Shown one piece after another: positions 1 through 62,241 of a DNA stretch of 64,000 nt. A program made the position numbers and the translations under genes. Source of the DNA: Aphrocallistes beatrix. Lineage: Eukaryota; Porifera; Hexactinellida; Sceptrulophora; Aphrocallistidae. The stretch spans positions 2,232,001-2,296,000 of the forward strand of contig OY725502.1 in NCBI GenBank assembly GCA_963281255.1, in the 5' to 3' direction. The notes beneath the pieces are model-generated. The model was not told the DNA's origin. It did not search any database and saw only the letters and a list, made by a program, of their open reading frames with translations. Position 1 is the first letter of the stretch. Each line of letters starts with the position of its first letter.

Positions 1-186
1 TTACAGATATATATACTATATATAGTATATATACACTAAGTGGACAAAAGTATTTCAGTAGTGATCTTTTTATTCTCCCATGATGAAAAATATTAAATAA
101 TCATAGTAGTTTACAATATTGTATATTGAAGAGATCGACTTATATTGAATACTCTCTTATTTGGCATTACCTAATGACTTCAATTA

Positions 187-728
187 TCCTTACTATTAAA
201 ACTCGATTATTGTTTGTGTATATATATATATATCTGTAACGAATTGATTGAAGAAACTGCCAGGCACAGAAAGCTGATTTTTGGCATGTGGGAGTCTTTT
301 GGTTATGGCTCCAGTAAGTTCTGAGCTCAGAGCAAAATGTCGACTCATCATGGAATTATGACGTCATTGTCACATTTTTAAAAGTTAAGCAACACAGTTA
401 TTCGGGGATAACTCAGCCATTATAGGAGATAGAAGGCTGAAATTTTAATAGAATCTGTATACTAACATACCTCACATATGATGCGACTTTCATCAAAAAA
501 TGATGACTCATCACTTTGTTATGACGTCATCATTACGCATCAAAAATTTTAAAATTTTAAAATTTGGTGATTTTTCGAGTGATTTCGATTTTACAACTAA
601 GATGGACATATTTAGAGATGATATCTCCCTTATAATTAACCAATGTCACCTCCAGGCGACCGAAGGGAGCCTCCGGCGGACACAAAGTGTCCGCCAGCCG
701 CGCAGCGCAAGCAAGCGAAGCGCGCTTG
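187..728 (+). mobile_element. Helitron-like H1, complete copy
   Basis: Complete non-autonomous copy of 542 bp. It starts TCCTTACTATTAAAACTCG at 187, preceded by A at 186, has a (TA)n tract at about 217-234, then the conserved AACGAATTGATTGAAG body. The tail carries a hairpin GGCGGACAC-AAA-GTGTCCGCC and a terminal hairpin CAAGCG-AAGCG-CGCTTG at 712-728, and ends CTTG with T following. Insertion between A and T fits Helitrons, as does the 5' end; the canonical CTRR 3' end is replaced by CTTG. No coding capacity is seen. It lies upstream of the Tc1 transposase start and contributes 89 spurious in-frame codons to it. Confidence 0.75.
359..366. promoter_or_regulatory. CRE-type palindrome (TGACGTCA) in H1
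   Basis: A perfect 8-bp CRE/ATF-type bZIP site. A second lies at 522-529 and an AP-1 type TGACTCA at 504-510, all inside H1. The same sites recur at the same places in most other copies of the family. Binding is inferred from the motif only. Confidence 0.4.
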
Positions 729-766
729 TACCTTTTAAATTAACATGTAACAATTATATTTTCATA

Positions 767-2511: not shown

Positions 2512-3075
2512 ATGCTAGAAACTTGCTTTAAACGGTTGACATTGGCTTTTCAGGGGTGTAGATTTCGAATATCATATTTTCGAGTAAGTTTGATAATTAA
2601 TTTGTTTACTTTTGTTTACAATAGATACATAAAGTAAACAAATCTCAACAATATGCTAGAAACTTGCTTTAAACGGTTGAGATGGGATTTTCAAGGGTGT
2701 AGATTTCGAATATCATATTTTCAGATCAATATGATAAATTATTTGTTTATTTTGGTTTACAATAGATACATAAAGTAAACAAATCTGAAAAATATGCTAG
2801 GAACTTGCTTTAAACGGTTGAGATGGGATTTTCAAGGGTGTAGATTTCGAATATCATATTTTCAGATCAATATGATAAATTATTTGTTTATTTTGGTTTA
2901 CAATAGATACATAAAGTAAACAAATCTGAAAAATATGCTAGGAACTTGCTTTAAACGGTTAACATGGGGTTTTCAGGGGTGTAGATTTAGAATATAATTT
3001 TCGAGTAAATTTGATAATTAATTTGTCTACTTATGTTCACAATAAGATACTTAAAGTATACAAATCTCTAAAAGA
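2512..3075 (+). repeat. 141-bp tandem repeat, four copies
   Basis: Four successive units begin ATGCTAG(A/G)AACTTGC at 2512, 2653, 2794 and 2935, a constant 141-bp period. Each unit holds AAACGGTTGA, a GTGTAGATTTCGAATATCAT block and an AATAGATACATAAAGTAAAC block. Units 2 and 3 are almost identical, while units 1 and 4 have diverged, as expected when inner units are homogenised. The same satellite lies inverted at about 30985-31410. The array abuts a Helitron-type tail (3076-3132), so it is probably internal to an F2-type element. Confidence 0.85.
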
Positions 3076-3480: not shown

Positions 3481-3747
3481 GCTCAACTTTTAAAAATGTG
3501 ACAATGACGTCATAATTCCATGATGAGTCGACATTTTGCTCTGAGCTCAGAACTTACTGGAGCCATAGCCAAAAGACTCCCACATGCCAAAAATCAGCCT
3601 TCTACGCCTGGCAGTTTCTTCAATCAATTCGTTACAGATATATATATACTATGTATACGTATATATAAATATACAATAATCGAGTTTTAATAGTAAGGAT
3701 ATATATATATATATATACAAACATTAATCGAGTTTTAATAGTAAGGA
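3481..3747 (-). mobile_element. Helitron-like H2, 5' half, with two stacked 5' ends
   Basis: Reverse-oriented. It contains the body from TGACAATGACGTCATAATTC to the GAATTGATTGAAGAAAC block. The 5' terminal motif occurs twice, ending at 3699 and 3747, separated by a TA tract. One terminus appears to have landed in, or been copied from, the TA tract of another. The 3' half is missing and the 60-bp module abuts it. Confidence 0.65.
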
Positions 3748-4697
3748 TATTCTGAAAGAGATCATACAAATCTGTAACTCTCTCGACTATCCCTAAGGAT
3801 AGCATTGAAAATTAATCACATTTAAAATAAGAGTAAAGAACCTTTGTAACCTACCTAGCTGTGATTAAGGTTTGGCGGAATGTATCAGGCGTTTCAGGAC
3901 CGACTAACTTAAGACATCTATTCATATATTCTAGCTGGATATTCGATCTTTGAGTTAGAGTTACATTGATATAAGAATATGGGTAACGGCTCGACACACA
4001 TATCTAGAAAAGTTAAAGAATAAATTTTAATAGAAAAGCTGTGCTTTACAATTACTGAATATTAGCATTCTCCAATCGTCCAAATTACGGAATTAGGAAA
4101 ATATTTTCGTTTGCTCAACTCATTTGAAGATTCCAGATAACATCTTAAGGTCAGGGAGTCAAAGAACTCTTTGCCTAAATTGAAAATAGCACATGGACAT
4201 TCCGCCCACAGACCGGCAGATCCTACCTATGAGTGGTTCACTTAACCAGGTTTTCGATTGAAATTGCTTGCCAATGGTTATGGACTCTTCATGTGATATT
4301 GAAAAATGTGTGGACAAAATTGAAGACTGCGCTCACAGGCATCATGCCGAAAGGGTGTTACTCTAGGAGCAAATGTACAAGTAATAATGGTGCAATTTTT
4401 TCGATACATGGAAAAACAATTTCAAAAAACTAAAGAAAAATCATAATAAAGAGTTAATAAAAAAACTAAAATGTGCAGTTATAGAACATGACGAACCTCA
4501 ATAAATGATAGATTTAAAGCGATATCATTGTCAAATAGCAAAACATCGTTGAAAAGAAGAAGAGAAAAATTTCCTTCGTAAAATGTCTAGATAAATAATA
4601 AATAATATTGTCAAAAAATATAAGGAATAATAGCTATTTTCAAACAACCATAAATATGAAATCATTTAATAACATTTAAAGAACATAACAAAGACTG

Positions 4698-9058: not shown

Positions 9059-9309
9059 TCTTGTACTAGCCGAATCTTTTAGCAGAAATTATCATTTCTG
9101 GACTTACTAGTACTGAAATTAGTTAGTTTTTGCATATGTGAATCCTTGATGCCACGAAAATACTGAGTGGAAATCTGAAAATAGAACAGATTGAAATTGA
9201 TTTTTGATTGGCTATAATTCATAAAGCATATCTTTAAAATTCAATATCCATACTATTAAAACTCGATTAATGTGTATGTGTGTGTATATATATCTATATA
9301 GTATATCTA

Positions 9310-10298
9310 CAGTGCCCGGACAAAAGTATTCGACTACCACAGAAACCTCCATACAAATAGTATTAAAGTGGATCTGTACATAAAGGAATATGTACTCAAA
9401 CTGTGAGAAATACTCTATTTTTTGATTTTTAATTCCTAATCTACACATTCTAATTACTCATAATTGAGATCCTCAACTCAATTAGTAACTCCCAAAATTT
9501 TAAATACAGTCGACTCTCGTTAACACGTACACCAAGCGACCGTGGAGATTTGTACTCCTTATCCGGAGTACGTATTAACCGAAGTTCGTACATAGCCACA
9601 TTTGTCCAAAATACTTAATATACATAGTGATAACTACGTGAGAGTATGAAATTGTACTTGTCAAATAGAGAACTCATTATCCATGTTGTATTAACGAGAT
9701 TCGACTGTATTTTCATTGAGAAATATCTGTCTAGTATCTATCTACGTACATACTACGTACCATATTCAAAGTGCTTGTAGGCACACACCTGTTCGTATTA
9801 TCCGTGTTCGTATTAACCGATGTATTTAGTATTGAAAACGCACTGAAGGGGACCCACAAATCGTAATTATTATCCGATATTTCGTCTTATCCGTGTTCGT
9901 GTTAACCGGAGTTCGTTTGTATATATTTTGCAATAGATTAGGTTGGGGAATCAAAACTTGCACTTCTTATCCGATTGTACTCCTTATCCGTGTTCGTATT
10001 AACGAGAGTCGACTGTATCTACCTTTGATACTTGATGCTACTTGTCCCGAGTCACAGCCATTATATATGATGGCGATTAGTGACACAAAGTGGCAGAGGT
10101 TGATAATTTTCTACATGAGAATTAGTATTTGTATTGAAAGTTTCAAAAATTAGTAATTCGGATGTATAGTCTACGAATCTGAAATCAAAAATAGAATACC
10201 TCTTCTGTTTGATTACATATTCCATTATAAATAGATCCACTTTAATACTGTTTGTATGGAGGTTTTCGTGGTGGTCGAATACTTTTGTCCGGGTAGTG
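9310..10298. mobile_element. Mariner-type non-autonomous element, 989 bp
   Basis: Inverted repeats of about 65 bp. The left begins CAGTGCCCGGACAAAAG and the right complements as CACTACCCGGACAAAAG; TA lies at 9308-9309 and 10299-10300. It contains a nested MITE (9507-10015). The remaining inner sequence (about 10020-10110) resembles the centre of the mariner MITE at 60268. No transposase is visible. Confidence 0.75.
9507..10015. mobile_element. Pogo-type MITE, CAGTCGACTCTCGTTAA ends
   Basis: Near-perfect inverted ends CAGTCGACTCTCGTTAA, TA on both sides (9505-9506, 10016-10017). The inner part holds many copies of TTATCCG(T/G)GTTCGT(A/G)TTAAC. It is nested in the mariner-type element. Confidence 0.75.
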
Positions 10299-10316
10299 TA
10301 TATATATATCTATATA

Positions 10317-10858
10317 AAAGCGCGCTTTGCTTGTTGCACTCCGCGGGTGGCGGATACAAAGTATCCGCCGGAGGCGCCCTTTGGGCGCCTGGGATCACCA
10401 CTGATTAATTGTATGGAAGATAACATACCTAAATACGCCTGTACTACTGTTATAATCTATATCGCACGAAAAATCACCAAATTTGTCAATTTTTAAAATT
10501 TTATGTGTAATGATGAGGTCATAATATAGTGATGAGCCATCATTTTTTGATGATAGTTGCATCATATATGAGGTAGGTTAGTATACAGATTCCATCATAA
10601 TTTCAGCCTTGTAACTCCTATAATGGCTGAGCTATACTCGAACAACTGTATTGCTTAACTTTTAAAAATGTGACAATGACGTCATAATTCCATGATGAGT
10701 CGACATTTTGGTCTGAGCTCAGAACTTACTGGAGCCATAGCCAAAAGACTCCCGCATGCCAAAAATCAGCTTTTTGTACCGGGCAGTTTCTTCAATCGAT
10801 TCGTTAAAGATATATAAATATACGTATATACACATTAATCGAGTTTTGATAGTAAGGA
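10317..10858 (-). mobile_element. Helitron-like H4, complete copy
   Basis: Complete reverse-oriented copy of 542 bp. The terminal hairpin (AAAGCGCGCTTTGCTTG on the plus strand) is at 10317. Hairpins GGCGGATAC-AAA-GTATCCGCC and AGGCGCCC-TTT-GGGCGCCT follow, then the body with a CRE site, and the 5' terminus at 10858 next to T. In the middle hairpin both stem arms changed together (GGATAC/GTATCC instead of GGACAC/GTGTCC), which keeps the pairing. Confidence 0.75.
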
Positions 10859-10870
10859 TATATATATATA

Positions 10871-11058
10871 CAGTCGACTCCGCTTAATAGGGCCACTGTT
10901 TAATCGGGTCAGCCGCTTAATCGGGCCACTTTTGGCAGGACCGGAGTAGCTCTCACATATAGAAGCTAATACAAAATATTTTCGGTTAATAGGGTTCTCC
11001 GCTTAATCGGGCCAAAATGTCCCCTGACCGATGTGGTTCTATTAAGCGGAGTTGACTG
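10871..11058. mobile_element. 188-bp pogo-type MITE, copy 1
   Basis: Ends CAGTCGACTCCGCTTAATAG and its near complement; TA at 10869-10870 and 11059-11060. The family has four copies in this window (also 39152, 49943 and 59356), all in Helitron TA tracts. Confidence 0.8.
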
Positions 11059-11439
11059 TATATATATTCTCTAACGAATTGATTGAAGAAACTGCCGGGC
11101 ACAAAAAATTTTTGGCATGTGGAGGTCTTTTGACTATGGCTCTACTAGGCTCTGAGCTCAGATGAAAATGTCGACTCATCATGGAATTATGACGTCATTG
11201 TCGACTTTTTTTATAATTAGACATCTCAGTTTTTCGGCTATAATTCAGCCATTTTAGCCGATAGAAGGCTGAAATTTTAATAGAATATGTATATTAATAT
11301 TCTTCACATGTATGAAACAACTATCATCAAAATTGATGACACATCACTGTGTTGACGTCGCCATTACGCATCAAATTTTTAAAAATAGGCAAACTTGGTG
11401 ATTTTTCGTACGATATAGAATTTAAAAGTAGGACAGACC

Positions 11440-30984: not shown

Positions 30985-31410
30985 ATTTTATTTACTTTAT
31001 CTAAATATTGTAGACAAAAGTTAACAAATAATTTAGCATATCGATCTGAAAATATAATATTCGAATTCTACACCCCTAAAAAACATATGTAAACCGTTGG
31101 AAGCTAGTCTCAAGCCTATTTTTGTCATTTGTCTACTTAATGTATCTATTGTAAACAAAATTAAACAAATAATTCATCATATCGATCTGAAAATATGATA
31201 TTCGAATTCTACACCAATAAGAAACCGATGTCAACCGTTGGAAGTTAGCCTCTAGCCTATTTTTGCCATTTGTTTACTTTATGTATAAATTGTAAACAAA
31301 GGTAAATAAACAATTAATTTATCTTTTCGATCTGAAAATATGATATTCGAATTCTACTCCCCTAAAAACCCCATGTCAACCGTTGGAAGCAGGTCTCTAG
31401 CATAATTTTC
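30985..31410 (-). repeat. 141-bp tandem array, inverted copy of the 2512 array
   Basis: Three units; TCGAATTCTACACC-type blocks recur at 31061, 31202 and 31347 (periods 141 and 145). The minus strand matches the units at 2512-3075 (GTGTAGAATTCGAATATCAT, CAATAGATACAT, CAACGGTT). It lies beside an F2-like Helitron end, as the other array does. Confidence 0.8.
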
Positions 31411-36302: not shown

Positions 36303-38402
36303 GGGGAATTCCATGTCAAAAAACCAAAAATTTCACCACCATCAACCGATTGATCTGAAATTTGCTGTGTGACAGGGCACGTATATGTCTTTACTTTTGT
36401 GAAAATTTCAGATCAATCGGTTATGTGGTTTTTGAGTTATGACGTCACAAATTTTTGAATTTTTTTGCTGTTTTGAACAAGGATTTTCACAATGGTAAAA
36501 TCCCATCCCATTTTAAACTCGAATAACTCGAAAAATATTCATCAAATTCTTTCATAAATTGCAATACTTATGTTTTTACATATGGAGAAAACGAAAAACT
36601 TGAGTAAATTAAGTTTTGAGTTCCTTTTCTTTGTGAAAACTGGAACTGAAACCAACTCCCGAAGCAAACCGGAACTATGACGTAACAAAAATGTATATTT
36701 TTGAAACTGTTTTATTTTGGGGTATTTTACTGTTTATATTCATAATTCATTGTATAAAAAAATTCATTTGGTTTCCATATGTTCTCTTTGAGTTATTCAC
36801 ATTTTTGTACCTGTAAACGCTTTCTATATATAATTCAAAATTTTATGCCTTTTGTAAAAATATAAAATTGACCTGACAACTCTCAATTCTACCATTTTGA
36901 AGATGCTTTTTTGTCTTCCTCTATAATATCACTAATTCTTACAACATTCTGCAATTGATATGTGCACTTGGAATTATAAGTATGTTGTATATTTGACCGC
37001 AGACAGACTAAACATAAACAGTGCAATGTTGTTGTTGCCATGTACGTAATAGGAATGCAATAAATGTCACCAATGAGTTGAAAAGTTAATTTTAGAGGGC
37101 TAATATTTGCTAAACAATCCGATATTTAGTCCGAACATAGTACTCTGTATATAAGGCCACCCATCTAAATCTCAAAAATGGACCAGGGATGCGGTCGAAG
37201 ATGGTTGATCAAATACATGATCTGCCAAAAATCATGAACGACGCAGAATAGAGCTTCGAAATGTATTACCAGCATATATAAATATGACGCCAGAGTATCC
37301 ATATCCGTTGTTAAAATTTCGATTAGTCATCATATGATTGCACAATAGGTTATATTTGGGACCACATTTAGTGAATTTCAGAGGTTGTTTAAGGGCACTT
37401 CTAAGTTTGTTTTAATATAGTTTCTTTGTATAGAACTGAGCTGTGAATGGGTTGATGCGAAAGTGAATATTTTTCATGGAATGTTGCTACATTCCAGCGT
37501 TGCTATGAAAACGCATTTTGATCAGTTGAGGTCATATCTTGAAAACCGCAATAACTATGCATTCAAATTTGATCTTATTTGATAGCCAATAGACTATTTC
37601 CTATAAAGCCATAACATAATTTACACGTCTAAATTCAATGGTTTGCGAGTTATTAGACAAATTACCAATTGTGACCAAAGTGATCATTTGTCTAATAACT
37701 CGCAAACCATTGAATTTAGACGTGTAAATTATGTTATGGCTTTATAGGAAATAGTCTATTGGCTATCAAATAAGATCAAATTTGAATGCATAGTTATTGC
37801 GGTTTTCAAGATATGACCTCAACTGATCAAAATGCGTTTTCATAGCAACGCTGGAATGTAGCAACATTCCATGAACCGCATCCCTGGTCCATTTTTGAGA
37901 TTTAGATGGGTGGCCTTATATACAGAGTGCTATGTTCGGACTAAATATCGGATTGTTTAGCAAATATTAGCCCTCTAAAATTAGCTTCTCAACTCATTAG
38001 TGACATTTATTGCATTCCTATTACATCGCAACAACAGCATTACACACTGTTTATGTTTAGTCTGTCTGTGGACAAATATACAACATACTTATAATTCCAA
38101 GTGCACATATCAATTGCAGAATATTGTAAGAATTAGTGATATTATAGAGGAAGACAAAAAAGCATTTTCAAAACGGTAGAATTGAGAGTTGTCAGGTCAA
38201 TTTTATATTTTCACAAAAGGCATAAAATTTTGAATTATATATAGAAAGCGTTTACAGGTACAAAAATGTGAATAACTCAAAGAGAACATATGGAAACCAA
38301 ATGAATTTTTTTATACAATGAATTATGAATATAAACAGTAAAATACCCAAAAATAAAACAGTTTCCAAAATATACATTTTTGTTACGTCATAGTTCCGGT
38401 TT
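36303..38402. mobile_element. Large palindromic element, right arm runs into an assembly gap
   Basis: The left arm is 36303-37662, the loop 37663-37685 (23 bases) and the right arm 37686-38402. Near the centre the arms match almost perfectly for over 180 bp. The left arm has an extra 280 bp (about 37195-37474) absent from the right. The right arm stops at the N run 370 bp short of the left arm's outer end (GGGGAATTCCATGTCAAAAA). No coding frame. It lies in a Helitron TA tract. Confidence 0.8.
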
Positions 38403-38602
38403 NNNNNNNNNNNNNNNNNNNNNNNNNNNNNNNNNNNNNNNNNNNNNNNNNNNNNNNNNNNNNNNNNNNNNNNNNNNNNNNNNNNNNNNNNNNNNNNNNN
38501 NNNNNNNNNNNNNNNNNNNNNNNNNNNNNNNNNNNNNNNNNNNNNNNNNNNNNNNNNNNNNNNNNNNNNNNNNNNNNNNNNNNNNNNNNNNNNNNNNNNN
38601 NN
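38403..38602. other. Assembly gap, 200 N
   Basis: Exactly 200 unknown bases, probably a fixed-size placeholder. Open frames drawn across it are meaningless. Confidence 0.98.
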
Positions 38603-41777: not shown

Positions 41778-42888
41778 TTTTATATCTACCATATATTCCT
41801 TATATAGGTGGTACAATTTTACATCTAGTAAGCAATTTAACATTTGAATTTTTATTCTCACAAGCGCGCTTCGCTTGCTTGCGCTGCGCGGATGGCGGAC
41901 ACTTTGTGTCTGCCAAAGGCGTCCTGCGGGCGCCTAGGGTCACATGGATGAATTGTAAGGGAGATAACATCTCTAAATACGTCTGTTCAACTGTTAAAAT
42001 CGATATCGCACGAATAACCACCAAATTTGTCAATTTTTAAAAATTTGATGCTTAATGATGACGTCATAACAAAGTGCTGAGTCATCATTTTTTAATGATA
42101 GTTGCATCATATGTGAGGTATATAATATGCACTTTCTTTCAAAATTTTAGCCTTCTATCACCTAAAATTGCTGAGTTATGATCGAAAAACTGAAATTTCT
42201 AATTCTAAAAAAGGTGACAATGACGTATTAATTCCATGATGAGTCAACATTTCCGTCTGAGCTCAGAACTTAGTGGAGCCATTGCCAAAAGACTCCCACA
42301 TGCCAAAAATCAGCATTCTGGGCTAGGCAGTATCTTCAATCAATTCGTTACATATATATATATATATATATAAATATATATACAAGCGCGCTTCACTTGC
42401 TTGCGCTGCGCGGCTGGCGAACACTTTATATCCGCCGGAAGCGCCCTTTGGGCGCCTGTGGTCACATTGATTAGTTATATGGGAGATAACATCCCTAAAT
42501 TTGTCTGTCCTACTGTTATATTTGATATTGCACGAAAAATCACCAAATTTGTCAATTTTTAAAATTTTGATGAGTAATGATAACGTCATAAAAAAGTGAT
42601 GAGTCATCATTTTTTGATAATAGTTGCATCATATGTGAAGTATGTTAGTACACATATTCTTTTAAAATTTCAGCCTTCTATCTCCTATAATGGCTGAGTT
42701 ATGCTCGAAAACTGTATTGCTTAACTTTTAAAAATGTGACAATGACGTCATAATTCCATGATGAGTTGACATTTTGCTCTGAGCTCAGAACTTAGTGGAG
42801 CCATTGACAAAAGACTCCCACATGCCAAAAATCAGCTTTCTTCACTAGGCAGTTTCTTCAATCAATTCGTTACAGAGATATATATACA

Positions 42889-43650
42889 CAAGCTCGCTTC
42901 GCTTGCTTGCACTGCGCGGCTTGCAGACACTGCATGTCCGCAGATTTACCCAGTGGGCGCTTGGTGATATTAGGGAAACAATACGTCGCTTTCTTGTTTT
43001 ATGCTAAATACGCTGGATTGTCATTTGTCTACGGTTAGATTAATGAAATCAGAACTGTAGCAGAAATTTTGTTTCGTGATAAATATAATTTACTTCGTAT
43101 TAAGTCAACTAATCCTGAATGTAAGCTCAATTTGAATATACAAAGTTCGTATTGCTAAAGATTATTATACTTAAATAATCAATTCTAGTCCATGTCGTTT
43201 CAAGTTATTTTATGATCGAATTGATTGATCGTAGCATATAACACACTTTAATTGTTGTTACAATCAAATTATAGACTCAAAATAGCAGTATTCAATCATT
43301 TATATGAAATAGAATCGTGTGAATGGCGTTATAAAAGGCTGATAATTGATTTGTTCTCACATAAACCAATGAATTTCAATCACAAATAGTTCTTTGATTG
43401 TATGCATAAGTCACTACTATTTTATTCCAATGTATTTGCATTATAAAATAATCGAATTTGATTGGTCAGCACATTTTGTCACCTATCTCGGCGAGGTGTA
43501 AACATTTCGCTTAGATCTTCGAACTTAATCCTAGATTCATCATTTGACACTTACATGCCAATTTTAGTATCTCTACGACTTGCCAATTCTTCAATCAATT
43601 CGGACAAACAAACAAACAAACAAATCATAGTGTTTTAACATATATGATAT
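42889..43650 (-). mobile_element. Helitron-like F2, nearly complete
   Basis: The 3' tail CAAGCTCGCTTCGCTTGC with GCAGACACTGCATGTCCGC is at 42889. A 600-bp F2-specific body contains TTTTGTCACCTATCTCGGCG and CTTAGATCTTCGAAC. The 5' region CGACTTGCCAATTCTTCAAT, CAATTCGGACAAAC and (CAAA)n ends near 43650. It shares the tail hairpin and the GAATTGATTGAAGAA motif with family H, but not the body. Confidence 0.65.
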
Positions 43651-47307: not shown

Positions 47308-47811
47308 TACAACTTGTAGTATTTAGAATAAGTTGTATCATGCATAATGGCCTCTAAAGAGTTGAGAGGGACGAAGCTAATTATACTGTAGGTGGACCAA
47401 GTTGTCATTCTCGGAGGACATCAGTTTCCGATCGTTTTATCCTCCTCAGGGATGCTGCGTTCATGTTCACCGCGGTGTGTCTGAAAGTTACATTCGTGCA
47501 CTTGAGTAGGTACCATTTCTCCTCGCCGTGATCAAATCCCATAAACTCATGAATGGCTCCATGTGATGGTTCGTCCACAAATCCAAATTGAGATGAATTG
47601 AACAGCTATCATAGACGAAATGATCAACCTACTCATCTAAACAAACTGAACCAACTGAACCGACTAAACTGAAAGAACGCAGGTCAGCTCGTGAACGAAG
47701 TAAACTAACGCTAGGGGAGTTGAAATTAGGAGGTCAACGTGAACACACTGAACGTGCTCAATTTGAGATGAACTGAATTGCGTTTGTTAAGTCGGTTTTT
47801 GTGAAAACATT
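47308..47811. other. Unassigned stretch, more GC-rich
   Basis: No repeat ends or gene recognised. It is a rare patch without visible mobile DNA and could be single-copy host sequence; repeated CAACTGAACCGACTAAACTG-like words occur near 47640-47770. Confidence 0.3.
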
Positions 47812-47893
47812 AGGGACCAGCCTTCGTACAGAAAGTTTTAATGGTCTCAACTATTTTCAAAAATTTCTCGGAACCGGTAGATTTTAGGTCATC
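47812..47893 (+). repeat. Fragment of the 59575 foldback element
   Basis: GGGACCAGCCTTCGTA, then TTTTAATGGTCTCAACTATT and CTCGGAACCGGTAGATTTTA match the loop and inner right arm of the foldback at 59575-60250, with the loop in the opposite orientation. Confidence 0.6.
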
Positions 47894-48160
47894 AACATAT
47901 ACAAGCGGGCATCGTTTGCTTGCGCTGCGCGACTGCGCTGCGCGACTTTGTGTCCGCCAGAGGAGCCCTTCGCCTGGAATCACATTGACTAATTTAAAGG
48001 GAGACAGCATCTCTAAATGCGCCTGTACTACTTTTATAAACGATTTCGCACGAAAAATCACCAAATTTGTCAATTTTTTAAATTATGTTGCGTAATGATG
48101 ACGTTATAACGGGGTGATGAGTCATCATTTTTTGATGATAGTTGTGTTATATGTGATATA

Positions 48161-49492
48161 CAGGGTGTCAGATAATTATTTTCAAATTTTAATTTGATTA
48201 TATGCGAAGAAGTAGATGATGCAGGCATATATCAATCATTTTATGTGTTCATTTATGATAATATATTAATAATCAATTTTATAACCATCTCCATCTATTA
48301 AGAGACGGCATCTTTTAGGCATAGAAGACCAGTAAGGCTCTAGGAATACAGGATCGATATTGCTCCAAATGTCATTAAGCTCACTTTTAAGGGCCAAAAT
48401 GTTCTTTGGACTGCGTTTGGACAGTTCGTACTTGATCCAACCAAAGAGATTTTCTATTGGATTAACATCTGGACTTTGGCTTGGCCACTCTAACCTCCTA
48501 TTAGGCATATTTTCGTTCATCCAAGCCTTTGTTGCCTTCGAGGTGTGCTTTGGATCGTTGTCCATAACCAAAACCCACTCTTTATTGTGAAATACTTTTG
48601 CTTGTGCTAATAAATGAACCTCCAATATCTTTGTAAATAGGGACGAGTCAAGATTTTGAGTGAATATGCATAAAGGAAATGTTCCTACGGACGAAAATGC
48701 AGCCCAGATGTGTATTTTCTGTGTATGTTTGCAAGTAGGTTGCAGGCGAATTTGACCTTTTTTGGTCCACATTCTGACACGACCTCTTGATAGCCATATA
48801 GAAGCTTCATCAGCAAAAATTGAGTGTTCCCATCTTCTTGACATATTGCACTTAGCCCATTCTACCCTATAAAGGCGATTCTTTTCGCTTAACATCGGAA
48901 TTTTTACTGGATACGGCTTCGAGTACTCAAGGTTACGAAGACATCTGTGTACTGTATCTCGAGAGATAATCACTGGTGATTTTGATGTCAATGTTCGTAT
49001 AGAGGTAGTAGGATCCAAGCTGATGGATTTCGCGACAAATTTCTTTATTTGAGGAATAAGTTTAGAGGGTCTACCTGCGCCTTTCTTGTGTTTAATCCCA
49101 ACTCCTGATTTAATGCTAGAATTTACATTGTAAACAGTCCTGGTAGACACACCTACAAGTCGACTAATTTCTTCAATCGAGTGCTTTTTACCATCTAATA
49201 AGATTCGTATGTGAATGCGCTTTGATAATTGAGACATAATAGAACAAATTATCTAGCAAATAATTGTAAAAATATCAATAAATAAAAATCAATAAAAAAA
49301 GTCGCGTCATCATGATGACGTAACGATTTCAACCTAAAAATCAAATTGTCCACTTAAATGAATGATTTTAAATTTAGTCAAAGCCTACTTAGGTTCATTT
49401 CCACCAGCAAAATGCAGCTAGTCATAGTTGCTCTAGGTTCTGAAACCATGAATGATAAAACAATGTTTTGAAAATAATTATCTGACACCCTG
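48161..49492 (-). mobile_element. Complete Tc1/mariner-type element (1332 bp)
   Basis: The 26-bp inverted ends beginning CAGGGTGTCAGATAATTATT are identical. TA at 48159-48160 and 49493-49494. A single gene fills it. Perfect ends and an open transposase frame suggest recent insertion. Confidence 0.93.
48266..49237 (-). CDS. Tc1-like transposase, DD35E spacing, intact
   Basis: A 323-residue cut-and-paste transposase that would bind its 26-bp ends and excise and insert at TA. The first ATG (49237) is chosen; it lies about 255 bp inside the right end and the protein has normal family length. N-terminal helix-turn-helix (residues about 19-40, IEEISRLVGVSTRTVYNV), AT-hook-like GAGRPSKL (53-60), second helix-turn-helix (about 65-105). 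Catalytic residues are D143 (FADEASIW), D226 (VMDNDPKHTS) and E262 (SPDVNPIENLFGWIK). Exactly 35 residues lie between D226 and E262, against 34 in classic Tc1. No stops or frameshifts, and all three acidic residues are present. It is the only transposase in the window that could be active. Clade membership beyond Tc1-like is not claimed. Confidence 0.93.
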   Translation of the reverse strand: MSQLSKRIHIRILLDGKKHSIEEISRLVGVSTRTVYNVNSSIKSGVGIKHKKGAGRPSKLIPQIKKFVAKSISLDPTTSIRTLTSKSPVIISRDTVHRCLRNLEYSKPYPVKIPMLSEKNRLYRVEWAKCNMSRRWEHSIFADEASIWLSRGRVRMWTKKGQIRLQPTCKHTQKIHIWAAFSSVGTFPLCIFTQNLDSSLFTKILEVHLLAQAKVFHNKEWVLVMDNDPKHTSKATKAWMNENMPNRRLEWPSQSPDVNPIENLFGWIKYELSKRSPKNILALKSELNDIWSNIDPVFLEPYWSSMPKRCRLLIDGDGYKIDY

Positions 49493-49736
49493 TATTAATA
49501 TACAGATTCTATTAAAATTTCAGCTTTCTATCACTTAAAAGGGCTGAGTTATGGTTGAAAAACTGGAATTTCTGATTTTAAAATAAGGTGACAATGACGT
49601 CATAATTCCATGATGAGTCAACATTTTCGTCTGAACTCAGAACTTGCCATAGCAAAAAGACAAAAATTAGCTTCCTCTACTTGATAGTTTCTTCAATCAA
49701 TTCGTTACAGATATATAGTATATACGTATATATATA

Positions 49737-49942
49737 CAAGCGCGCTTCGCTTGCTTGCGTTTTGCGGCTGGCGGACACTTTGTGTCCGCCGGATGCGCCT
49801 GACATCATAATTCCATGATGAGTCGGAATTTTCGTCTGAGCTCAGAACTTAGCGGAGCTATAGCCAAAAGACACCCAATTGCCAAAAATCAGCTTTCTGT
49901 GCTTGGTTTCTTCAATCAATTCGTTGCATATACAAGTATATA
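49737..49942 (-). mobile_element. Helitron-like H16, internally deleted
   Basis: Tail hairpins at 49737 join directly to CATCATAATTCCATGATGAG, so about 300 bp of the body is missing. The remainder runs to CAATCAATTCGTTGCAT and a TA tract occupied by a pogo-type MITE. It starts in the TA tract of H15. Confidence 0.65.
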
Positions 49943-50147: not shown

Positions 50148-52310
50148 TACAATACCGATTTACGAATTGTTTGGGAGCAAAAGTGTTCGTTAAATCGATA
50201 TTTATTACCTATTTAAATCTGGTAGTATTTTATAAATTATGGGTGGGTTTAAAGAAATATTAAAAATAGCCGAACTAGCTTTAAACAAGTCAACCATGAC
50301 TTTGAGATAAAACATGATACAGGATAAAACAATTGTCCTGCTAAATGAATACCTACCGTCTCGCTTTTCTCTTTACCTTGGTGGCAATTATGCAATTATT
50401 TTATCTGGAGCTCTTTGATTAATAACAGATATTTACGGACACCCACAAGCCACAACCACAAATTTCTAATCTGACCACAATTCTATTTACTTTGTTGTGT
50501 ACTTCTGGTTTTATGTTGACCTTATTATACACTACACTTTGTATCGATTTACGAATTATTTCCAAATAACCCCCACAAAAATCTTGCTTCCTAGTAGTAT
50601 AAATCGAATTTTATTTCTTCCCCTGATTTACTTACTTGTCTAATCAAATGGTATATAATATTATTGCGACGACAAAGAAGAGAAATTCACGGAGCTTAGG
50701 GGTTAAACAAGAGATTTATAAAAAACTAAAAACTGGGACAACACCATCAGAGATTGAAAAAGAATATGGACTTTCAAGAACTGCTATTTATTAGTGAACT
50801 CAAAAAATTTTCATGACCCAAGATAGAAGAATTCTTGAAAACTAACCCAGATTTGAAGGATAGAAAGACGATGAAAAGTAGTGCCAATCCTGAGCTGGAG
50901 AATGCTTTGCTGATGTTTTTTCAGCAACAACGTGCCTTAGGGAAACCTATCTCGGGTTGTCTTCTTAGGGAGAAGGCAAATATTAACAAGAAAAGCTAAT
51001 AACAAAAGGAGTACTCGACCATGGTTATACTTACAACGATGACGCTGATTTAACTGATGGATTTGTTAATCGCTTTAAAGGGCGACATAGCATTCCTCAA
51101 CTGAATTTTTATGGTGAAAAAGCAAGCGCGGACAAAGGTGCTGTAGGTCCATTATCAGAAAAATTTCAGGAATTGATTGTCAAAGAAAATCTGAGTATAT
51201 AACAAATATACAACTGTGATGAGACTGGATTATGCTTGCGCTCAATCCCAACTACGACATTAGCTGGACCCGAGGTAAACAAAATCGAAGGAACCAGATT
51301 AGACAAATATCATGTCACTTTAATGCCATGTGCAAACGCATCTGGCACACACAAACTCCAATTAGTGTTCATTTACAAATACGAAAACCCTCGCGCATTA
51401 AAACGTGTTAATAAGAAGAACCTTCCAGTTAGTTACTATAATCAGGCCAAAGCATGGATGAACAATTTTATTTTTGACAGATGGTTTAATAGTGAATTTG
51501 TTCCTCTAGTGAGAAAGCATTTGAGGTCAATCGGAATAGATGGAAAAGCAATACTGGTCCTAGATAATGCTCCTGCACATCTGAAATTCCTAAAAGAAGC
51601 TAATGTTCATCATGTTGGTCCGGAATATAAAATTTTTTGTGTTTTTCTTCCTGCGAACACAACATCAATTCTTCAGCCGATGGACCAGGCAGTCTTAGAT
51701 ACCCTAAAGAGATATTGCAGGAAAAAGTTGATGTGTACAGCGTTAAATGAATTGAATGAGGAAAAAACAATGATTGAAGTAAAAAAGAACATAACAATAA
51801 GAGATGCTATTCATTGGGCTGCTGAAGCATGGTAAGATATTAGTCCTTATACAATATTTTCAAGTTGGAACAGCCTACTGCCAGAAAAGTGTATTATGGA
51901 AGTACCTGATCCCACAACAAGTGACGGCAACGAAGAAGAATTTCCACTAAAGAACTGGTTGGATTCAAGTTATGATGAACTCGATCCTGGCTTCCAGTTG
52001 ATGAATGATGAAGAAATCCTCGAATTTTGCAAAGAAGAGAAAGCACCTGTAGAGGAGCCACTAGAAGAACTGATCCCCGTTCTGGATGTCTTGCCTATTT
52101 CTGAAGTTGTTCTTCTACTCCATGATATCATGTTTACTCTGGAGAATGACGTCAATAGCACCAAGCATGAACTTTTGATGTTCCGGGGAGTTTTAAACAG
52201 AGGGCGGCTTTGAAAATGTAGCGGTATTGCTGAATTTACTTTTCTCTCTAGATTGATTCATACGAATTTACTTACAGAACTTAGTTGGTATCATTACCCA
52301 TTGCATTATA
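50148..52310 (+). mobile_element. Tigger-type element, degenerate
   Basis: Encloses a long transposase pseudogene. The presumed left end CACTACAATACCGATTTACG follows TA. CGTTAAATCGATATTTA words recur near both sides (50190, 52490-52550), but a clean right terminus was not found, so the limits are approximate. Confidence 0.5.
50648..52213 (+). pseudogene. Tigger/pogo transposase pseudogene, near full length
   Basis: DDE_1-type transposase of about 500 residues with several stops and two frameshifts. From the ATG at 50648: pogo-type helix-turn-helix (KKRNSRSLGVKQEIYKKLK, then PSEIEKEYGLSRTAIY and a TAG). In another frame comes a CENP-B-like DNA-binding part (NPELENALLMFFQQQRALGK), followed by FVNRFKGRHSIPQLNFYGEK. 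The catalytic core has its first Asp at 51218-51220 (NCDETGL), its second in LVLDNAPAHL, and its third in TSILQPMDQAVLDTLKRY. After a TAA at 51833 the same frame continues into an acidic C-terminal tail (LDSSYDELDPGFQLM) to 52213. All three acidic residues survive but the gene cannot be translated whole. Confidence 0.85.
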
Positions 52311-59307: not shown

Positions 59308-59355
59308 TCCCTACTATTAAAACTCGGTTAATGTGTATATGTGTATATATATATA

Positions 59356-59540
59356 CAGTCGACTCCGCTTAATAAGGTCACTGTTTAATCGGGTCAGCCG
59401 TTTAATTGAGCCACTTTTGGTAGGACCGGAATAGCTCTCACAAATAGAAGCTAATACAAAATATTTTCGGTTAATAGGGTTCTCCGCTTAGTCGGGGCAA
59501 AATGTCCTCTGACCGATGTGACCCTATTAAGCGGAGTCGA

Positions 59541-59543
<3 letters not shown>
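59356..59543. mobile_element. 188-bp pogo-type MITE, copy 4
   Basis: Ends CAGTCGACTCCGCTTAATAA and CGGAGTCGACTG; TA on both sides. Same length as copies 1 and 3. Confidence 0.82.
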
Positions 59544-59574
<31 letters not shown>

Positions 59575-59575
<1 letters not shown>

Positions 59576-60250
59576 GGTGCTCCAAGAAATTCCAAAGTTT
59601 GAATCTTATGATGCACACTCTTTAAATAGTTTACCTTGATCACCAAGTATTCACCATAAAATTTTCATGCAATTTGGAGATGGCTTAGTGGTCGCGCAAG
59701 GTAGCCTCCCCTTCGTGCTAATTTATGTTGGGATATGTCTGGGTTGAGGCCAGAAGTTGTAAAAAGCGTACTTCTGACATTTAAATAAACTAGTAGCTTG
59801 ATTTTTGTAATATTTGAGGGTGGTTTTATTCAGCTAATAATACATTTTAATAACCTAAAATCTACCGGTTCCGAGATATTGGTAGAAACAACTGGGACCA
59901 TTAATAATTTCAAGTATGAAGGCTGGTCCCAACTGTTTTCACCAATATCTCGGAACCGGTAGATTTTAGGTTATTAAAGTGTACTATTAGCTGATATAAA
60001 ACCACCCTCAAATATCACAAAAATCAAGCTACTAATATATACAAATGTCAGAAGTAGGCTTTTTACAACTTCTGGCCTCAACCCGGACATATTCCATTAT
60101 AAATTAGCACGAGGGGGAAGCTACCTTGCGCAATCACTAAACCATCTCCAAATTGCATGACAATTTAATGATGAATACTTGGTGATCAAGGTAAACCATT
60201 TGAAGAGTGTGCATTATAAGATTCAAACTTTGGAATTTCTTGGAGCACCC
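59575..60250. mobile_element. Foldback element, 326-bp arms, 23-nt loop
   Basis: The arms 59575-59900 and 59924-60250 are inverted copies starting GGGTGCTCCAAGAAATTCCA, with few mismatches. The loop is 59901-59923. TA at both borders (59573-59574, 60251-60252). No coding frame. Confidence 0.88.
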
Positions 60251-60267
60251 TAATATATATATATATA

Positions 60268-60743
60268 CACTGCCTGAACAAAAGTATTCGTACACCCCAT
60301 AATTCCTCATAAAAATAGTTACAATACTGGTTTATTTAGCGAGTCAAGGTATTTAATTGGTAAGAGATACACTTAATTTGACTTCAAATTCGAAGTCTCT
60401 ACATTCAAATTTCCCACTTTATAAGTTTTCAACTTAATTGTTCTTCTTCAAGATTTAGTATTTTCAGTATTTGCTTTCCTATGCCACATGTCACGAGTGA
60501 TCACCATTGTATATGATGGCATTGGTCGTATGAAGTGGCACATTATGAAAATTTTTAACCTTGTGGGAGTGTAAACAAGTTGAAAGATTAAAAAGTGGGT
60601 AATTCGAAAATGGAGAATTGGAATTTGAAGTTAAATTAAGCGTATCTCTTACCAATTAAATACCTTGACTCGATAAATAAATCAGTATTATAACTATTTG
60701 ATGGGAAATTATAGGGTGTACGAATACTTTTGTTCAGGCAGTG
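60268..60743. mobile_element. Mariner-type MITE, 476 bp (CACTGCCTGAAC ends)
   Basis: Inverted repeats of over 110 bp starting CACTGCCTGAACAAAAG; TA on both sides. The centre contains CACGAGTGATCACCATTGTA and an ATATGATGGCATTGG block shared with the 9310 element. Full-length relative of 12148. Confidence 0.85.
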
Positions 60744-60756
60744 TATATATATATAT

Positions 60757-61282
60757 CAAGGTTGAAACCGATTGAACCGAATATCAGTATTCATGAATAG
60801 TTCCTGAACCGAATGCGAATACTGTTAATATTCGGTACTCTAACGGTTAGAGTACCGAAATTATCAGTATTTGTATTCTGTTAGAGTCTAACCGAATACA
60901 AATACTGATATTATTCGGTACTTTATAAATTCTAATGCTGCGCAGCTGAAATAAATAATATTTATTAGAGGACTGTGAATTGTTATAGTACTATATGTTG
61001 ACCTATTTTACAGATAGTGACTGGATATGAGAGGTAAATTAGTTAGAAAATATATTATAACCAAGGTTGAAACCGATTTAACCGGATATAAATATTCATG
61101 AATATTCCCTAACCAAATACGAATACTGATAATATTCGGTTAGTTCAACCGAATACGAATACTGATATTCGGTCACTCTAACCGAATGTGAATACTGATA
61201 TTCGGTTCCCAACCGAATATCAACTATTTGCCAAATCGTTTTTGGTCTAACCGAATATTGAACTATTCGATTGCAACCTTGA
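60757..61282. mobile_element. CCGAATA-rich inverted-repeat element
   Basis: Outer ends CAAGGTTGAAACCGATTG and the complement of CAAGGTTGCAATCGAATAG. The inside is dominated by CCGAATA / TATTCGG words and GAATACTGATA. A second internal start CCAAGGTTGAAACCGATTTA at 61058 suggests two tandem copies. No coding frame; superfamily unknown. Confidence 0.55.
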
Positions 61283-61292
61283 TATATATAGG

Positions 61293-61781
61293 GCATTAGT
61301 CGATCCTCAAAAGAAGGATCTAGATCCAGATCCCCATCCTAACTTATAAAAGCATCTTCGAACCGATAACGATCCTAATTTTATAAAAGGATCTTCGATC
61401 CAATCACGATCTCCAAAAGATCCTTTCAATAATAGTCAGAGGAATATCATTTTTAGTAGAGCTCCTGGAAGGAGATGCCTTATGGCATGGACAGCGTGGA
61501 ATGTCCGTCCGTCTGCGGCAGCCTGGGGCGTACTTAGTGCTTAAGTTAGTTTTCAAATCATAAAACACATTAAAAAACTATATTTAATCAACATAAATTT
61601 CAACACTTTCACCTCCAACTTGGGGATTAAAAAGAAAAGGATCGGATCGAATGCATTGAAAGTTTCGATCAGATGCCGATCCCGATCCTACTTTTAAAAA
61701 GGATCGTCGATCCGATCCTGATCATCAAAAAAAGGATTGCGATCCGGATCTTTCGATCATGGATCGAAAGATTCTAATGCC
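61293..61781. mobile_element. GATC-rich element with GGCATTAG ends
   Basis: Short inverted ends GGCATTAG/CTAATGCC. Many GGATC-GATCC words near both sides (AAGGATCTTCGATCC, AAAAGGATCGTCGATCCGAT). No coding frame; superfamily unknown. Confidence 0.5.
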
Positions 61782-62241
61782 ATATATATATAAATATCTG
61801 CAACGAATTGATTGAAGAAACTGCCATGCACATAGAGCTGATTTTTTGCACGTGGGAGTCTTTTGGCTATGGCTCCAATAGATTCTGACCTCAGAACATA
61901 ATGTCGACTCATCATGGAAATATGACGTCATTATCACCATTAGAATTTTTAGTTTTTAACTATAATTCAGCCATTTTAGTTATTTGAAGTCTTAAATTTT
62001 AATAGAATGTTTATATTAATATACATCAAATATGATACAACTCTCAACAAAAATGATGACTCATCACTATTATGACGTAATGATTGCGTATCAAAAATAG
62101 AGAAATTTCAAATTTTGTGATTTTTCGAGTGTAATCGATTATAACAGTAAGATGAACCTACTTAGAGAGATGTTATCTACCTTATAATCAATGTGGCCCG
62201 GCACCCAAAGCAGTGCATGCAAGCGAAGCGGGCTTGTTTAT

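Follow-up and report, generated by a model that had tools for sequence, protein, structure and literature searches.

The DNA analysed here (the window) is a stretch of 64,000 nucleotides from the hexactinellid sponge Aphrocallistes beatrix (GenBank assembly GCA_963281255.1, contig OY725502.1, positions 2,232,001 to 2,296,000 of the forward strand). Close to its end (window 59308-62236), five different elements lie in a row inside the (TA)n tract of a single Helitron-like copy (Table 1). This arrangement had been described in a first-pass annotation of the window, and its coordinates and main anatomy were confirmed: the 5' motif begins at 59308, the body runs to a CTTG end at 62236, and five inserts bordered by TA repeat are found in between. 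All five inserts (P, F, M, E4 and E5) belong to repeated families. Further full or partial copies of P and M were present at other loci examined. F, whose target duplication is unreadable inside the TA repeat, has a second full copy in the Helitron tract of locus L008 (812-1494) and partial copies at L034, at L032 and at window 47798-47901.

Table 1. Features of the two multi-occupied Helitron tracts (window coordinates).
Feature	Position	Strand	Remarks
Helitron 5' end, A followed by TCCCTACTATTAAAACTCG..., and first piece of the TA tract (59344-59355)	59308..59355	+	AT before CCTTAC in 55/58 matches
P, putative pogo-type MITE, 188 bp, 26-bp TIR CAGTCGACTCCGCTTAATA	59356..59543	+	TA flanks; 2586 exact ends genome-wide
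TA tract piece between P and F	59544..59572	.	
F, long foldback, 682 bp, arms 90% identical, ends TTAGGGTGCTCC / GGAGCACCCTAA	59572..60253	.	
TA tract piece between F and M	60253..60267	.	
M, putative mariner-type MITE, 476 bp, nearly all inverted repeat, CACTGCCTGAACAAAAGTATTCG ends	60268..60743	.	TA flanks
TA tract piece between M and E4	60744..60756	.	
E4, about 525 bp, ends CAAGGTTG; 8-bp target duplications elsewhere (hAT-like)	60757..61281	.	7 other places, 84-88% identity
Short TA piece between E4 and E5	61282..61290	.	
E5, about 495 bp, ends TAGGGCATTA, one end altered in this copy; hAT-like 8-bp duplications elsewhere	61289..61784	.	32 other places among 40 scored
Last TA tract piece ahead of the body	61783..61792	.	
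Helitron body, CTGCAACGAATTGATTGAAG to 3' end ...GGGCTTG, followed by T	61793..62236	+	Body word TGTAACGAATTGATTGA, 4232 exact copies
Second multi-occupied tract	9247..11433	+	5' motif 9247, TA, M2 9310-10298, TA, inverted Helitron about 10316-10858, TA, P 10871-11058, TA, body 11069-11433

The carrier belongs to a non-autonomous Helitron-like family, present in thousands of copies, in which (TA)n lies between the 5' end and the body. The 100.5-Mb genome contains 5220 matches to the body-start word with up to three mismatches (0 for the control), and the exact 17-letter body word TGTAACGAATTGATTGA occurs 4232 times; exact-word counts of this kind capture only the better-preserved copies. Like canonical Helitrons, the family starts with TC (TCCTTACTATTAAAACTCG) and is inserted between A and T without duplication, as read from the flanks: an A precedes the T of the 5' TC (AT ahead of CCTTAC in 55/58 matches examined) and a T directly follows the 3' CTTG in 51/53. 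The flanking bases are thus A and T, and not the two T of the Helentron/HINE target. Hairpin stems were found in the last 74 nt of the 3' tail (z = -5.9) when this was assembled by hand from the window copies; the last 23 nt alone gave a 6-bp stem no better than shuffles (33/200 as good). The window copy itself has a decayed tail (z = 0.6). The 3' end is CTTG and not the CTRR of canonical Helitrons, and for this reason "Helitron-like" is the strict label. The genome contains 106 matches to the Helitron Rep domain PF14214, three of which, among those listed, are in ORFs of 1947-1970 aa. At 10 Rep loci, whose element ends lie beyond the extracted sequence, the 5' motif, the body start and the terminal CTTG motif were absent at the thresholds used; one Rep locus (L018) gave a single weak match to the GC-rich tail stem.

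A few rearranged copies were seen besides the regular ones. Head-to-tail arrays, in which (TA)n and body are repeated without the 5' motif, are present at window 42353-42941 and 49495-49799 and at L043, and look as if they had come from rolling-circle read-through or same-strand insertions. Extra body-less 5' ends, tandem or inverted and joined by TA repeat, were observed at window 3650-3750 and at L046, L056 and L023:8490-8553; these may have been left by recombination between tracts. The window also holds 200 consecutive N next to a Helitron 3' end (about 38400-38600). A 141-bp tandem repeat forms two arrays in it, apart from each other and in opposite orientation (2512-3073 and 30987-31409), the units of which look related by eye.

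As regards the elements that occupy the tract, P and M show the TA duplication and the terminal inverted repeats of pogo/Tc1-mariner MITEs (self inverted repeats were seen), with TA ahead of the end in 24/26 P-type and 10/10 M-type matches. The superfamily names that we give to the two are presumptive, being based on end sequences. The window contains a 199-aa DDE_1 transposase fragment (51236-51835), which represents a possible kind of partner for P MITEs, and a Tc1-type element (47900-49710) within an interrupted Helitron body, with a 323-aa transposase ORF (48266-49237, DDE_3).

E4 and E5 are separate families. Among 40 scored places, only the window copy gives a single match across both, while seven match E4 only (query 1 to 525-529, with the ends as predicted in 7/7) and 32 match E5 only (24/32 start at query 522-538 and 29/32 end at 1023-1025, the rest being shorter). 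A fragment of E4 and an E5 occur near each other on C18, at a distance of about 0.7 kb. Target duplications of 8 bp, read by eye, flank all seven other E4 copies (four perfect, three with one mismatch) and 6/11 distinct E5 copies (four perfect, two with one mismatch), the latter number deriving from 13 places read, two pairs of which were identical. hAT transposons duplicate 8 bp and prefer the target nTnnnnAn, which we take TATATATA to fit. On the basis of the duplication size, E4 and E5 are probably hAT-like. None of the seven other E4 copies is in (TA)n, and neither is any of the six E5 copies with a readable duplication. Of the 11 distinct E5 copies, two are in Helitron bodies, one clearly lies in a Helitron tract and another probably does. 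One E5 has a 5' motif on one side and an M end on the other (L107/L108), and another, within TA-rich DNA, is flanked by P and by a reversed Helitron 3' end (L103/L104). These data suggest that, of the two families, E5 at best has a preference for the tract. The occupants had been described as TA-targeting transposons, which is too narrow, considering that E4 and E5 make 8-bp duplications and that Helitrons, with their A/T target, land there too.

The tract belongs to the Helitron and predates the insertions. In fact, the tract is empty in 1003 exact copies genome-wide, where 8-38 nt of mostly TA-rich repeat separate the 5' word from the body word. Each Helitron copy adds new (TA)n, as had been proposed. 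The opposite order of events, in which the inserts produced the tract from a duplicated TA grown by slippage, would agree with the fact that P, M and related elements duplicate TA, and with the TA pieces around the five inserts, which sum to more than the usual empty tract. Nevertheless, this origin is extremely improbable. Besides the evidence of the empty copies, P does not itself bring the repeat: 2158 of the 2586 exact P ends are not at TATATATA (the remaining 428 adjoin it), and P copies with plain TA on each side exist. The target duplications of E4 and of many E5 copies are 8 bp of differing sequence and not TA. We therefore rejected it as a general account, in agreement with the first-pass annotation, according to which such an origin would have undone its reading. 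It is possible that existing TA pieces grew later.

Occupancy of the tract recurs. The second multi-occupied tract of the window (Table 1) holds an M2 element within which a Q element (about 9501-10021) is nested, and L008 is another pile-up, where F and P are in the order opposite to that of the window copy. At five of the 12 body starts in the window (11069, 36268, 39132, 49929 and 61798) the tract carries another repeated element, three starts (42353, 42875 and 49710) adjoin another Helitron at its 3' end, and at the remaining four (234, 3637, 10809 and 32709, the last almost without tract) the 5' motif is in place. The tract of the Helitron copy at window 186-730 is unoccupied. The annotation had listed the same position as occupied in copies H0, H3, H10, H11, H14, H15 and H16: the recurrence holds, but the list as written could not be matched to copies.

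The shares of occupied tracts given here come from samples, since a genome-wide figure needs exact words on both sides. The first sample (264 kb) was made of the window and 20 pieces of 10 kb taken at 1-Mb steps on contigs C1-C3. It gave 28 body starts, two of which were dropped. Among the 26 classified, nine have the 5' motif in place, nine have another repeated element and six have another Helitron (three inverted 5' ends and three tandem), the upstream DNA of the other two being unassigned; a missing 5' motif alone can also mean truncation. Another 20 loci were drawn from 100 listed exact matches on C1 by taking every fifth. They yielded ten with the 5' motif in place, six with another Helitron end and one with a Q element (L048), three (L039, L050 and L052) being left unassigned. 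L048 had been considered as two MITEs in one tract, which was rejected in favour of one Q element of about 521 bp. Whole Helitrons also land in the tract, as in the case of the inverted copy at L049. Genome-wide, exact words of P/Q-type (pogo-type MITE) ends adjoin the body side of the Helitron 80 times and the 5' side 82 times; 16 pairs of 5'-side and body-side junctions lie on one strand at an element-sized distance, 9/16 of them at 168-172 nt.

This recurrence could be due either to repeated landings or to amplification of a few composite elements. Helitrons can carry passengers, and one or few of them might have taken up MITEs long ago, so that the occupied copies would be their descendants. 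The first six P-carrying Helitron copies, other than those counted below, all have P in the same orientation, as a common descent would predict. However, among the first 32 of the 80 body-side junctions each end of P is turned towards the body 12 times (six of the others are Q and two are unassigned), which brings the total, with the first six, to 18:12. On a tree of 35 bodies, the 12 carriers require nine changes, against a mean of 10.3 after shuffling (122/500 shuffles were as low), and are not clustered; this tree is weakly resolved (3/32 inner branches starred), a point in favour of the composites, and 10 of its 12 carriers were chosen as carriers, the window copy being labelled by hand. 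Moreover, the order of P and F is reversed between L008 and the window, and the gap to the body varies from 9 to 30 nt among ten loci. Hitchhiking was dropped as the main account on the evidence of the orientations and of the tree, and we consider it very unlikely. Independent landings are supported: the insertions look mostly independent, with room for a few small composite lineages.

The preference of P for (TA)4 over other TA was then expressed per site. A 200-kb systematic sample, drawn from contigs C1-C3 only, contains 17,156 TA sites, of which 192 are the end of a TATATATA. The whole genome has 70,567 of the latter, at a lower density per kb, the sample being richer in (TA)4 than the genome. 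With the share from the sample, P ends per oriented site are about 18-fold more frequent at (TA)4 than at other TA; with the genome count set over 8.6 million TA scaled from the sample, they are about 24-fold more frequent. Outside Helitrons, the share of P ends at (TA)4 could be inflated by TA growth that followed insertion. As for the Helitrons of the 264-kb sample, 9/26 tracts hold at least one other element (217 TA were counted before 24 of the starts), and the bodies have two insertions at 1047 TA, one of which is the Tc1-type element at 47900-49710. The tract is thus a strong landing hotspot relative to ordinary TA sites (approximately 18- to 24-fold for P at (TA)4), in line with the landing pad proposed in the annotation.

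A different result was obtained when Helitron tracts were compared with other (TA)4 sites. Out of 100 P ends at (TA)4 (the first listed of the 428, from C1 to part of C3), 14 are on the body side of an exact Helitron tract, as compared to 12.3% of oriented sites (p = 0.54); 24 of the 100 are at one side or the other of a Helitron tract. The value of 12.3% is based on 8493 forward (TA)4 sites for 2076 forward bodies, which scale to about 17,300 when all 4232 bodies are taken; on the reverse strand the count was per body (1671/2156) and was thus left out of the site total. The "other" (TA)4 sites still include decayed Helitron tracts and so are not purely free microsatellites, and the genome-wide insertion rate refers to P only. 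We looked for an excess of P landings specific to the Helitron and did not find it in this comparison. It could still be argued that chromatin, neighbouring DNA or a replication intermediate makes the Helitron tract a special pad, favoured over other (TA)n. Long (TA)n does coincide with Helitrons (12/20 tracts of at least 12 bp in the systematic sample and 10/14 in the window), and the 95% interval of the P share (7.9-22.4%) leaves room for an excess up to about 1.8-fold; with 14/100 against 12.3%, however, a special pad seems to us very unlikely. Since P shows no excess at Helitron tracts over other (TA)4, nothing about the Helitron itself is needed: the landing pad is ordinary (TA)n and the Helitron is an abundant vehicle that supplies pads. 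The portable landing pad of the first-pass annotation therefore stands as far as the new (TA)n brought by each copy and the hotspot relative to ordinary TA are concerned; the part that finds no support is any special property of the Helitron microsatellite beyond that of (TA)n, since in the comparison that the annotation itself had set as a refutation the density of P in the tract shows no clear excess over other (TA)4.

How much of the genomic (TA)n is supplied in this way can be estimated. About 17,300 of the 70,567 (TA)4 sites (24.5%, an estimate) lie within 26 nt before the exact body word. With looser words, 87/192 (TA)4 sites were Helitron-associated in the 200-kb sample and 61/107 in the window. 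One may go further and suppose that the Helitron is the main supplier of such insertion sites in the genome, that its target, not being consumed, sets where several groups of DNA transposons and its own kind accumulate, and that the tract may even act as a decoy sparing the body and the ends needed for mobility. We regard this extended version as rather doubtful.

On the whole, it is probable that an abundant Helitron spreads a generic (TA)n that several DNA transposons prefer. Each Helitron transposition would install a fresh (TA)n, and the latter would be a preferred target of unrelated DNA transposons, namely pogo/mariner-type elements, at least some hAT-like elements and Helitrons. Insertion would leave TA repeat on both sides without using up the target, and because TA repeat remains on both sides of the insert, insertions can follow one another, here five times. 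The cause would lie in a target preference at integration, for DNA that may be flexible, easily distorted or nucleosome-poor, rather than in unequal survival, and the leftover repeats would presumably regrow. This would be a countable case of one transposon building a habitat for others. The attraction seems to lie in (TA)n itself, which hints at a DNA shape or accessibility common to unrelated integration reactions.

Microsatellite-targeting MITEs have been described in plants. As far as the accessible text of the report goes, MuTAnT of Medicago is such an element, is named alongside Micron of rice and TAFT of maize, and has 204/218 copies of one family in perfect (TA)n (PMC4486113). The present elements resemble these three, judging from the same text, in that non-autonomous DNA elements lie inside (TA)n with TA repeat remaining on both sides. 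Unlike MuTAnT as described there, only 428/2586 P ends adjoin (TA)4, the target is used by several superfamilies, and much of the (TA)n is transposon-borne. Microsatellites are also carried by the non-autonomous Helentrons DINE-1 and HINE (PMC4067079), which, according to the part of that paper available, prefer TT or T-rich targets and have subterminal inverted repeats, whereas the present family, with its A/T site and TC start, is closer to canonical Helitrons. Among the entries listed by a search, judged by titles and the starts of abstracts and in a collection outside of which most subscription papers fall, we found no report of a Helitron-borne (TA)n common to several superfamilies. The landing-pad idea itself is already published: in the accessible portions of these articles, TE-borne microsatellites are proposed as landing pads (PMC3411680), and the same is stated in a review for microsatellites around TEs (PMC12477314). 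Both, in those portions, argue from association; here the carrier is Helitron-like, the tract is seen to precede the insert and a per-site rate is available for one family, which makes the present case a strong and counted one.
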